NCBI RefSeq assembly: GCF_020217005.1
Contig: NZ_JAIWOI010000307.1
Coordinates: 1-16,955, forward strand
Length of the DNA: 16,955 nucleotides
Source of the DNA: Rheinheimera sp.
GTDB lineage: Bacteria > Pseudomonadota > Gammaproteobacteria > Enterobacterales > Alteromonadaceae
Direction of reading: 5' to 3'
This document shows, in pieces, positions 2,932 to 5,651 of the stretch; the stretch's first letter is position 1; each line of letters begins with the position of its first letter. Under the pieces are notes generated by a model. The model ran no database searches and was not told the origin of the DNA. It worked only from the letters and a program-made list of their open reading frames with translations. Made by a program: the position numbers and the translations under genes.

Positions 2932-3027
2932 TCACTCCCCAACTCTATTAATTACCGCTTTATCCAGCATCCACATCAAACCCGCTAAAGCCCAGACCAC
3001 CACAATGTTAATCACAATGAGCGACAT
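2932..3027 (-). CDS. 31-residue single-span membrane peptide upstream of the PspC-domain gene
   Basis: A short frame, ATG at 3027 and TGA at 2932-2934, encodes a peptide starting MSLIVINIVVVWALAGLMWM and ending in a charged tail (LDKAVINRVGE). The first 20 residues are almost wholly hydrophobic, so one membrane span is expected. A good ribosome site (AGGAGAAGG on the minus strand, just right of 3027) precedes the ATG. The stop overlaps the ribosome site of the pspC-like gene, the pattern of translational coupling. Its position resembles pspB before pspC, but the peptide is far shorter than PspB and I do not recognise it. Coding status rests on context, ribosome site and hydrophobicity. Confidence 0.68.
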   Translation of the reverse strand: MSLIVINIVVVWALAGLMWMLDKAVINRVGE

Positions 3028-3057: not shown

Positions 3058-3132
3058 TTAGATCTCGTCGGCAGCCCAGCTACCTACAATGCCAAACCAC
3101 GCTAAAACAACCATCAGTGCTACCATTTCCAT
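3058..3132 (-). CDS. Tandem membrane micropeptide, copy 1 (promoter-distal, most diverged)
   Basis: This 24-codon gene encodes a peptide with pattern ME-M-VALMVVLAWFGIVGSWA-ADEI: a short acidic start, a hydrophobic span (about residues 3-21) with two tryptophans (W12, W19) and small residues G14/G17, and an acidic D-E-I end. TGAGGAAAG precedes the ATG at 3132. It differs from copy 2 at 10 of 75 bases, yet only residues 3 (M/I) and 21 (A/V) change; seven other codons change synonymously. That is direct evidence of selection on the protein. It is the last of three copies and lies 30 bp before the 31-codon gene. Function unknown; a small inner-membrane stress peptide is the likeliest reading. 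Confidence 0.82.
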   Translation of the reverse strand: MEMVALMVVLAWFGIVGSWAADEI

Positions 3133-3195
3133 TTTAACTTTCCTCAGTTTTATTTCGGTTTTAAATACTTACTATTATTTATCTGTGCTTAGCCG

Positions 3196-3270
3196 TTAGA
3201 TTTCGTCTACAGCCCAGCTGCCAACAATACCGAACCAAGCTAATACAACCATCAGTGCTACTATTTCCAT
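3196..3270 (-). CDS. Tandem membrane micropeptide, copy 2
   Basis: The middle copy of the 24-residue peptide begins MEIVALMVV and ends VDEI, with the same W12, G14, G17 and W19. Its ribosome site TGAGGAAAG lies at the same distance as in copy 1. It differs from copy 3 at only two of 75 bases (V4A, plus a synonymous glycine change). The 63-bp spacer behind it (3133-3195) is nearly identical to the one between copies 2 and 3 (3271-3333), so the duplication unit included the spacer and ribosome site. The frame has too few codons for routine gene callers. Function unknown. Confidence 0.82.
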   Translation of the reverse strand: MEIVALMVVLAWFGIVGSWAVDEI

Positions 3271-3333
3271 TTTGACTTTCCTCAGTTTTCTTTAGGTTTT
3301 AAATACTTACTATTATTTATCTGTGCTTAGCCG

Positions 3334-3408
3334 TTAGATTTCGTCTACAGCCCAGCTGCCAACAATGCCGAACCAAGCTAATACAACCATCAGTGCTGCT
3401 ATTTCCAT
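3334..3408 (-). CDS. Tandem membrane micropeptide, copy 3 (promoter-proximal)
   Basis: The first copy to be transcribed: ATG at 3408, stop TAA at 3334-3336, 24 residues beginning MEIAALMVV and ending VDEI, with the same hydrophobic span and tryptophan pair. Its ribosome site GGGAGAG differs from that of copies 1 and 2 because the duplicated unit ends at this point, which marks this copy as the one next to the original leader. The predicted start of the sigma-54 transcript is about 57 bases upstream. A single inner-membrane span with an acidic C-terminus is expected. I do not recognise the family. Confidence 0.82.
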   Translation of the reverse strand: MEIAALMVVLAWFGIVGSWAVDEI

Positions 3409-3475
3409 TTTGACTCTCCCAAGTATTTGTTAGTGGTTAAATTCATCATCAGCTTCTCTGTTGATATCTATACAT

Positions 3476-3491
3476 TGCAGCTGTTATGCCA
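3476..3491 (-). promoter_or_regulatory. Sigma-54 (-24/-12) promoter of the micropeptide/PspC unit
   Basis: On the minus strand 3491-3476 reads TGGCATAACAGCTGCA, matching the RpoN consensus TGGCAYRNNNNTTGCW at every defined position but one (C for the first T of TTGC). The essential GG and GC are exactly 10 bases apart. The predicted transcription start near 3465 leaves a leader of about 57 bases before the first micropeptide. Phage-shock operons are classically sigma-54/PspF driven, which fits the downstream pspC-like gene. The activator's binding site was not identified. Confidence 0.72.
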
Positions 3492-3750
3492 ACTTAAAAA
3501 TAAATTATAAATATATGTTTTTTATGATTATTTTTAAGAAAAACCAAAATATCTCGATAGCTCAAATTTCATCCAAAACACAAAAATAGTATTTTTAACC
3601 ACTTTTTAGTTGATTTAAAAACGTACAATTGTGGCTAAATTCAGGCGCGTAAATGCCGCAGGATGGCGCTAAAGAAGAGTCTGAATAGTGGCAGAAATAA
3701 AGGGGGCGACAGGAGCAAACAGGACAACGGAAAAGGATTTAAAAAAACAA
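3492..3750. other. Non-coding region upstream of the sigma-54 promoter
   Basis: I see no convincing gene in this stretch. The part next to the promoter (about 3492-3630) is strongly AT-rich with runs of A and T, the composition expected where IHF bends DNA and an enhancer-binding protein acts upstream of an RpoN promoter. I found no perfect IHF consensus here. The part from about 3640 to 3740 is purine-rich on the + strand and unexplained. Confidence 0.5.
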
Positions 3751-3776
3751 AACCCGGTACGACTTAAGACCGGGTT
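3751..3776 (-). terminator. Rho-independent terminator of the 88-aa gene unit
   Basis: Arms AACCCGGT (3751-3758) and ACCGGGTT (3769-3776) enclose a 10-base loop. Read on the minus strand the stem is followed by a U-rich run (complement of 3741-3750, seven A's). It ends transcripts coming from the 88-aa gene at 3892-4158, and the stop codon of the 41-codon frame lies in its loop. Confidence 0.8.
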
Positions 3777-3889
3777 GAGGTAGGAATATCAAAGGGGGGT
3801 AATAACCAATGCCAGATCACGGACACTAAGCCAACACTAACAACGGGCAATAAAAACAGCCCCAACAACCCTAATGTTAAGCTCAGCAT
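3764..3889 (-). CDS. Possible 41-residue hydrophobic peptide, coupled to the 88-aa gene
   Basis: ATG at 3889 begins two bases after the stop of the 88-aa gene; the peptide starts MLSLTLGLLGLFLLPVVSVG and runs to a stop at 3764-3766. Residues 2-30 are strongly hydrophobic with two tryptophans (W26, W28), followed by PPFDIPTSTRS. AAGGTGG, inside the last codons of the upstream gene, can serve as the ribosome site, so translation would be coupled. The stop lies in the terminator loop, so the frame exactly fills the space between gene and terminator. No homologue is recognised. This is a plausible small membrane protein, not a proven one. Confidence 0.5.
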   Translation of the reverse strand: MLSLTLGLLGLFLLPVVSVGLVSVIWHWLLPPFDIPTSTRS

Positions 3890-3891
3890 CC

Positions 3892-4158
3892 TTAATCCAC
3901 CTTAGCAACCGCAATCACCGTCTCTTTTTCAGTTTCAGTGTCGCTTACCAGGCTAGTTGCCAGTTCAGCCAAAGCTTTTTGACTTTGTTGCACTATGGCA
4001 ATTTTTAACTCAGCCATTTGCTGATTCATCAATTCAGCGGCAAAAGTGCTGACAGCTTGTGCATTGACTGAAGGCAGGTTCAGCTCGTTGGCTTGTACGG
4101 ATGGAGTAGCAGCAAAAGCTGTACTGCTAACAAAAACTAAAGCGGCAAGTGTTTTCAT
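3892..4158 (-). CDS. Small exported protein of unknown function
   Basis: This 88-residue protein has a clear signal peptide: MKTLAALVFVSSTAFA, with a likely signal peptidase I cut after AFA (residue 16). The mature part of about 72 residues is rich in Ala, Gln, Glu and Leu, with a probable amphipathic helix (about 33-67, containing MNQQMAELKIAIVQQSQKAL), and ends in a Thr/Glu-rich tail. There are no cysteines or metal motifs. AAAGGAG stands 8 bases before the ATG at 4158. A sigma-54-like promoter lies at 4201-4216 and a terminator at 3751-3776, so it forms a short unit of its own. It is probably periplasmic. I do not recognise a family. Confidence 0.78.
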   Translation of the reverse strand: MKTLAALVFVSSTAFAATPSVQANELNLPSVNAQAVSTFAAELMNQQMAELKIAIVQQSQKALAELATSLVSDTETEKETVIAVAKVD

Positions 4159-4353: not shown

Positions 4354-5355
4354 TTAAAGCTGAGGCACTTTTTTCAGCGCATCCAGCATCACCTGTGGAC
4401 CACTACTTGGCAGATGACCTATTTCGCTTAAATGCCTGCGCCACAGACGGGCGCCAGGTACCCCCTGGAACAGACCAAGCATATGCCGTGCTATATGCCA
4501 GAAGCGTGCTCCTTGCGCCATTTGACGCTCGATATAAGGTAACATCAACTCCACCACCTGATGTGGTGTGGGCACAGTGCGTGGATTGTTATAAATAGCG
4601 GCATCAATTTGTGCCAACATCAAAGGGTTCGCATAGGCTTCACGTCCAACCATAACCCCATCCACGTGCTGCAAATGCGCTAAACAATCTGCCAGCGTTT
4701 TAACACCTCCATTAATAGAGATATCTAAATGCGGGAAATCCTTTTTCAACTGATACACCCGTTCGTAATCCAGTGGCGGAATTTCACGGTTTTCCTTCGG
4801 ACTTAACCCACTTAACCAGGCTTTACGGGCGTGTACGATAAACTGCTTACAGCCTGACTCGGCTATAGTGCCAACAAAGTCGACTAAAAACTGATAGCTG
4901 TCCTGATCATCAATCCCAATACGGCTTTTTACTGTAACGGGAATATCCACCACTGCACGCATCTCGTTGATACAAGCAGCGACCAACTCAGGTTTGGCCA
5001 TCAGGCAAGCACCGAACATACCGTTTTGCACTCTGTCTGAAGGACAGCCTACGTTAATATTAATAGCATCGTAACCCCGTTCCTGACAAAGCTTAGCGCT
5101 GTGCGCCATATCTTTAGGATCAGAACCACCCAGCTGCACGACCACAGGGTGTTCTTCTTCATTGAATGCCAGGTAATCACCCTGTCCATAAATGATGGCA
5201 CCTGTGGTAACCATCTCAGTGTAAAGCACCGCATGTTCCGACAATAATCGATGAAAATAGCGACAATGCTTGTCCGTCCAATCCAGCATAGGAGCAATGG
5301 AGAAACGGTGATCGATAATCACAGGCTTTGAAGGTGAAGTAGTCGAACTAGTCAT
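4354..5355 (-). CDS. dusA: tRNA-dihydrouridine synthase A
   Basis: DusA is an FMN/NADPH enzyme that reduces uridines 20/20a in the D-loop of tRNAs. The TIM-barrel begins [18 protein letters not shown]. It carries the catalytic cysteine in [13 protein letters not shown] (C104 from the chosen start), [12 protein letters not shown], the [16 protein letters not shown] signature, SINGGVKTL and [12 protein letters not shown] for flavin binding, and the [17 protein letters not shown] region near the C-terminus. With the ATG at 5355 it has 333 residues, close to E. coli DusA. An upstream in-frame ATG at 5433 would add 26 residues that do not look like the family. The ribosome site is weak at either start. 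It is transcribed alone and divergent from zur. Confidence 0.95.
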
Positions 5356-5651
5356 ATAACGGCTGCCATCAGTTGATCTGTTACTTTTCGTCGCCCTGAG
5401 ACCAGGGTGTTGAAAAATCGCGCGAGTATACACCAGAACAGCAGATTTTTCTGCGTAGAACCTTTGAAAAACGCTACAGATTGCTTGCTAAGCACTGGCT
5501 TAGTGCGTTGTGCAGTAAGTTAAAGCTATAGCTACTATCATCTGGCACTGCAGCTCACTTTAAGATTGCGCATTGAAATAGCTCAAGCGGGGCTGGAGTG
5601 GGCAAACTTATGTGATAAACTGCCGTTATTGCCATGGGAATGAGCTGAGTT
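5356..5651. other. Divergent intergenic region dusA/zur
   Basis: This 296-bp stretch must hold both dusA and zur promoters. I see a small inverted repeat (CTAAGC at 5488-5493, GCTTAG at 5498-5503) but no gene and no confident -35/-10 pair. No clear Zur box was found. Confidence 0.4.

Follow-up and report, generated by a model that had tools for sequence, protein, structure and literature searches.

The phage-shock (Psp) response occurs widely among bacteria, yet some of its parts are still unclear. In E. coli, PspA is described as releasing PspF on inner-membrane damage (PMC9239133), and PspF as binding upstream of both pspA and pspG (PMC3709507). The order of genes around pspG in E. coli K-12 is zur, yjbL, yjbM, dusA, pspG, pspH, qorA, dnaB and alr. 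PspG is a small hydrophobic product. Its role has been described as not fully understood (PMC9239133). Two other groups of small membrane peptides have to be considered beside it. Among the type I toxins, Zor was discovered through a search for tandemly duplicated small hydrophobic proteins, and most of these toxins are described as carrying positive residues towards the C-terminus, IbsC, ShoB and DinQ being exceptions (PMC8309996). YohP, a small E. coli membrane protein, is described as lowering the membrane potential, and its production as raising PspA and PspC (PMC12719787).

Here we describe an array of 24-codon frames in Rheinheimera sp. The window analyzed is a stretch of 16,955 nucleotides, one contig within a genome of 3.92 Mb, and its features are collected in Table 1. 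In this window dusA is followed by the operon that carries the array, and alr, dnaB and a zur-like gene (157 bits, slightly below the cut-off of 167) are found nearby. A preliminary description of the same DNA had noticed the three short frames, and this observation holds; it had missed their strand, the operon partners, the sigma54/PspF-type promoter, the position downstream of dusA and the restriction to one clade. We propose that the array is probably the front of an accessory Psp operon, which would be induced by PspF and sigma54 and would deliver several doses of a membrane micropeptide under inner-membrane stress.

Table 1. Features of the array locus in the window, with their positions, strand and supporting evidence.
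Feature	Position	Strand	Evidence
Mini-PspC, PspC domain alone, 68 aa	2721..2927	-	Pfam PF04024, 52.1 bits (cut-off 25)
31-aa single-span peptide	2932..3027	-	After the array in 12/12 array genomes; pN/pS 0.17
24-aa peptide, promoter-distal copy, MEMVALMVVLAWFGIVGSWAADEI	3058..3132	-	ORF listing, genus search
24-aa peptide, middle copy, MEIVALMVVLAWFGIVGSWAVDEI	3196..3270	-	ORF listing, genus search
24-aa peptide, promoter-proximal copy, MEIAALMVVLAWFGIVGSWAVDEI	3334..3408	-	ORF listing, genus search
Conserved leader, 66 nt, sigma54 site to first start codon	3409..3474	-	Mean pairwise identity 0.92 in 12 genomes
Sigma54-type promoter, TTGGCATAACAGCTGCAA, GG-N10-GC	3475..3492	-	12/12 array genomes
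Probable PspF enhancer box, CTAAAAAGTGGT	3598..3609	-	First base at -117 relative to the sigma54 site; fits CYAANAAGTRGY
Probable terminator, parts ORF41 from the operon	3741..3776	-	Stem-loop then T-run; folded stretch at -11.7 kcal/mol
ORF41, 41-aa hydrophobic peptide, upstream neighbour	3764..3889	-	12/12 array loci; pN/pS 0.10
ORF88, short protein, signal-peptide-like start (by eye), upstream neighbour	3892..4158	-	ORF listing
dusA, locus anchor	4354..5433	-	NF008774, 530.5 bits (cut-off 269)

The DNA repeat of the window consists of three units of 138 nt whose starts lie 138 apart, at 100, 90 and 71% identity to the first. The three frames of 24 codons exist as previously described, and the ribosome site attributed to each was found at all three copies, being of the GGAG or GAGG type; a ribosome-site-like stretch precedes every frame of the operon. 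The residues that had been singled out (W12, W19, G14, G17 and the DEI end) are correct. The peptide had been read as single-span, which agrees with its hydropathy (GRAVY 1.68, best 18-mer 2.23). It lacks K and R, and contains three acidic residues. The exact 138-bp period is a feature of the window genome, whereas relatives have periods of 118, 132, 136, 139, 140 or 141; the period is thus not conserved across the carriers (118-141). The preliminary description had recognized no family, and none of the three copies of the window matched one up to E = 1 in Pfam or NCBIfam. The 24-aa and 31-aa peptides were also without Pfam match up to E = 1, and no model of Pfam or NCBIfam, PspB included, was matched by either. 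Judged by these searches, the peptide of the window copies is a new family.

The promoter-distal and middle copies differ at 10 bases. The residue changes at two codons only (3 and 21), and seven others differ synonymously; these counts are exactly as first reported. Of the 10 changes, 8 are synonymous (15.3 sites) and 2 nonsynonymous (53.7 sites), with a binomial P of 1.7e-4 against uniform change. The selection on the peptide that had been claimed from this pair is purifying, as the pooled pN/pS of the 24-aa frame is 0.107-0.125 (about 0.11) against 1.8 and 1.0 in the remaining two sense frames. Variable sites are distributed 4/3/16 over codon positions 1, 2 and 3, and the uninterrupted copies comprise 26 different DNA sequences, which specify 11 peptides. 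The mini-PspC core has a pN/pS of 0.10, and the values for ORF41 and the 31-aa peptide are given in Table 1. The preliminary description had called for a count of homologous copies with their substitution ratio, and had held that stops or frameshifts at the neutral rate would speak against genes. That pattern was not observed. We counted 31 copies in 12 of the 22 genomes of the genus; one copy contains a stop and none differs in length, with inter-copy spacers that vary from 43 to 66 nt. Because copies are present in 12/22 genomes, 30 of 31 are uninterrupted, their length is constant and pN/pS is about 0.11, we consider from this comparison that the array is made of real micropeptide genes. 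The interrupted copy is the second of four in genome G118 (locus L134), where a TGA stands at the W19 codon; the other three copies are uninterrupted.

The order 24-aa array, 31-aa peptide and mini-PspC was found in 12/12 array genomes. The 31-aa peptide shares W12, W19 and D22 with the 24-aa peptide, position for position. This coincidence was noticed before the shuffle test, in which it was reached with a frequency of 0.003-0.005 at that offset and of 0.02-0.04 for the best of 20 offsets, so that a common origin of the two peptides is suggestive only. The last gene of the operon encodes a PspC domain alone: as a full-length PspC equivalog (NCBIfam TIGR02978) it scores 50.2 bits, below the cut-off of 104. 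A relative of this mini-PspC (E ≤ 1e-8) was detected in 22/22 genomes of the genus. Elsewhere in the genome of the window, the end of pspA (cut by the contig end) stands together with genes for PspB and PspC, both above an NCBIfam cut-off, and PspF was above its curated cut-off in 22/22 genus genomes. On the upstream side, an A/T-rich region lies between the sigma54-type site and the probable terminator, a structure absent from a simple terminator scan that allowed loops of 3-8 only. Neither ORF41 nor ORF88 belonged to a family above cut-off in Pfam or NCBIfam. ORF88/ORF41-like pairs are also present in genomes without the array, and in five loci from other genera (L098-L100, L114, L115).

The sigma54-type site has the form TTGGCA[TC]A[AG]CAGCTGCAA and occupies a fixed place in 12/12 array genomes. 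A similar site is seen in the 10 array-free genomes, where the last TGGCA ahead of mini-PspC is followed by TG[AT], resembling TTGGCATGATTCTTGTA in front of pspG in E. coli. In 11/12 array loci, a box of the form CYAANAAGTRGY was found at -117/-118, for an expectation of 0.00045 per locus from shuffles; the twelfth locus (G123) has CTAAAAAATGGT instead. The same form occurs at three kinds of reference sites, namely the E. coli pspF-pspA interval (in opposite orientation, 88 bases from TTGGCA), the region ahead of pspG in E. coli (74 bases to the promoter) and the region upstream of pspA in 3/3 Rheinheimera genomes looked at (97 bases). The distances between box and promoter thus differ, with 74, 88 and 97 at the reference sites against 117-118 at the array. 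The consensus was drawn with the site of the window in view, but the three reference site kinds alone yield a form that the box of the window fits. A strict match to CYAANAAGTRGY was seen in only 2 of the 10 loci without the array, both in opposite orientation. From their form, we read the boxes as putative PspF enhancer sites. A link of the array to envelope stress, which the preliminary description had mentioned as a test condition only, is supported. The DNA upstream of the promoter has an identity of 0.64-0.69, against 0.92 in the leader. This leader is about as conserved as the coding frames and may hold a regulatory element. A sigma54-like match, TGGCAGCTGGGCTGCA, also occurs inside some peptide frames (10 among 31 copies); it was rejected as a by-product of the codons and is absent from the copies of the window.

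Carriers contain 2-4 copies of the 24-aa gene, never one, in the 12 genomes. Copies were recognized by their first residues, and no interval was long enough to conceal another. The carriers form one group in the DusA tree with a support of 97/93; this tree comprised 20 of the 22 genus genomes (G131 and G133 omitted) and one long-branched outgroup, and was drawn with a midpoint root. Mini-PspC is retained in all 10 array-free genomes, where a TGGCA-type promoter precedes it. Beyond the other side of the operon, prmA (1701-2597 in the window) was found in 12/12 array genomes. The stretches retrieved from 8 array-free genomes did not show prmA, so the array and this rearrangement may share a branch. 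Mean identity is 0.72 for the spacers and 0.91-0.94 for the frames. Within a genome, spacers are 95-100% identical in 7/8 pairs (64% in the eighth, from G134), against a mean of 64% between genomes, so the copies are either recent duplicates or homogenised. Coding copies hardly differ in this way, being 93% identical within a genome and 92% between genomes. A hairpin, GCTGAT-N4-ATCAGC, can be drawn between peptide genes, for example at 3384-3401 and 3524-3541 of locus L132; on the opposite strand it was classed as terminator-like by the scan.

The array was also sought more widely. Among 118 genomes of the family, the 24-aa peptide was found in the genome of the window and in G111, with two weak matches, in G101 (E = 0.03; no PspC frame seen by eye at this locus) and in G009 (E = 0.09, inside a frame of 357 codons). 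In 295 family genomes, the 31-aa profile gave 8 strong matches, all of them from array genomes. A further 24 matches were weak (E 0.001-0.1); 22 of these had loci, none of which showed a PspC motif. A scan of species-genome contigs with the 24-aa alignment, which detects only relatives keeping one of two conserved stretches, returned 71 pattern stretches, of which 9 loci were confirmed: 7 from named Rheinheimera and 2 from gammaproteobacterial MAGs. Viral contigs gave 8 pattern stretches, none of them confirmed, and plasmids gave no pattern match. The closest named carriers are Rheinheimera, R. mesophila first. The array was not found in another genus in the genomes and contigs searched, and within this sampling it is restricted to one Rheinheimera clade. 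Kinship of the 31-aa peptide with a 40-aa frame placed before mini-PspC in genus g18 (3 genomes) was considered and not demonstrated: there were 7 identities each, and the shuffle frequency was 0.003-0.007 when residues moved freely and 0.05-0.15 when span and tail were kept apart. Among the matches listed in a search of titles and abstract openings of open-licence PMC articles, none reported the 24-aa peptide or a tandem micropeptide array in a Psp operon, and a word search of PMC9239133 and PMC11237479 gave no mention of Rheinheimera.

What the peptide does is the least certain step of our proposal, and two modes of action other than protection have to be weighed. The presence of the array in a Psp-type operon would be compatible with an action like that of YohP, also a small membrane peptide tied to the Psp response: the peptide would lower the membrane potential, bringing the cell to quiescence and reinforcing the response in a feed-forward manner. 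However, causation would be reversed between the two cases, as YohP induces Psp and here Psp would induce the peptide. Neither a tandem array nor a Psp operon is described for YohP in the parts of PMC12719787 consulted. We regard this action as unlikely, even though it is the main alternative to the protective effector that we favour. Less likely again are peptides that act as type I toxins do (Ldr, Ibs, Zor), with an antisense RNA to silence each of them. The small size, hydrophobicity and tandem copies do resemble Ldr (long direct repeat) and Zor, and tandem copies of a short hydrophobic peptide are the likeness with the Ldr, Zor and Ibs group. But the peptide of the window is acidic, has no K or R, and is encoded within a shared sigma54 operon with PspC, and no Rfam match was obtained in the window at gathering scores. 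Also, a simple consensus scan of low power detected no antisense sigma70-like site in three loci: it returned one site in the window (sense), none in L134, and one in L132 (sense, beyond the array).

Two further explanations were weighed. In an array of structured or regulatory RNA, the frames would be incidental. A 6-bp hairpin is possible in 16/19 spacers and 10/12 genomes, one hairpin pair is changed on both sides in G135 (the other changes are one-sided wobble changes), and the leader is highly conserved. Nevertheless, G120 and the two spacers of the window lack the hairpin, G119 has one pair disrupted, and the shuffle z-scores of the 16 hairpins extend from -4.0 to -0.15. The concentration of frame variation at third codon positions, spacers far more variable than the frames, and the lack of an Rfam match in the window also argue against RNA as the conserved product, and we consider this explanation very improbable. 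A protein of tandem repeats encoded on the opposite strand is hardly credible. Two antisense frames are indeed open across all 31 copies, and stop-free stretches reach 118 codons in G111 and 102 in G122, but in the 351-bp array of the window the longest antisense stretch free of stops has 45 codons, and 14/19 periods are not multiples of three. The pN/pS of the antisense frames is 2.6, 0.30 and 2.4, and the frame at 0.30 has its third positions in common with the sense frame.

We return to the accessory Psp operon as the preferred explanation. Damage to the inner membrane would free PspF from PspA, and PspF bound about 117 bases upstream would activate the sigma54 RNA polymerase at TTGGCA-N6-CTGCA. 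A single message would then carry 2-4 copies of the 24-aa peptide, one 31-aa peptide and the protein made of the PspC domain only. Tandem copies would raise the dose of peptide relative to mini-PspC, and a dosage role of the repeated copies, as suggested in the preliminary description, is plausible. Given their hydrophobicity, the peptides are expected to insert in the inner membrane, where they would most likely act as membrane-protective Psp effectors. They could pack through a W/G face against mini-PspC, PspA or each other, or could stiffen the bilayer at damaged sites. A more far-reaching idea, possible but clearly tentative, is that the 24-aa and 31-aa peptides are Psp components of a new class, micropeptide subunits that go back to a single ancestral gene, assemble with the core PspC in a dose set by tandem copy number, and replace PspG at its ancestral locus. 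With Pfam PF09583, PspG was found in 0/118 family genomes, including that of the window, and the control was found in E. coli.

A compact operon with several 24-aa copies beside a lone PspC domain would offer a small system for the study of how Psp membrane components function. Our observations also suggest that the promoter and enhancer of a regulator can lead to genes which routine callers miss for their shortness, and such short genes would be worth seeking upstream of mini-pspC in other genera. Relatives of mini-PspC (E ≤ 1e-9) were present in 79/147 family genomes searched. The search returned 30 loci, 25 of them outside the genus, of which 24 were read (L122 left out). A hydrophobic frame of 30-45 aa was seen by eye before mini-PspC in 10 of these 24 loci (L098-L100, L110-L112, L114, L115, L117, L118), and no small hydrophobic frame was seen there by eye in the other 14. 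Loci L098-L100, L114 and L115 are dusA loci, and in L110, L111 and L112 the C-terminal part of PspA precedes the hydrophobic frame. The frames in L110-L112, L117 and L118 are possibly overlooked Psp components.

Among known systems, the pspG locus of E. coli is alike in several respects. Like pspG, the operon follows dusA and has zur, dnaB and alr in its vicinity; its TTGGCA promoter is similar, a putative enhancer box of the same form stands upstream, and its products are small and hydrophobic. The differences are one longer PspG in E. coli against several 24-aa peptides, a 31-aa peptide and mini-PspC here, and a box at 74 bases from the promoter there against 117 here. The PspB-PspC pair offers a second comparison: the operon ends in a PspC domain (PF04024) and has a small hydrophobic frame before mini-PspC, as pspB precedes pspC elsewhere in the genome. 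Mini-PspC is however without the region that follows the domain, and the 24-aa and 31-aa peptides match no model of PspB. Very small hydrophobic frames next to a PspC core are found repeatedly, and the array of Rheinheimera seems to be a more elaborate form of this arrangement. This kind of operon is already known in outline, and the tandem micropeptide array is a new variation of it.
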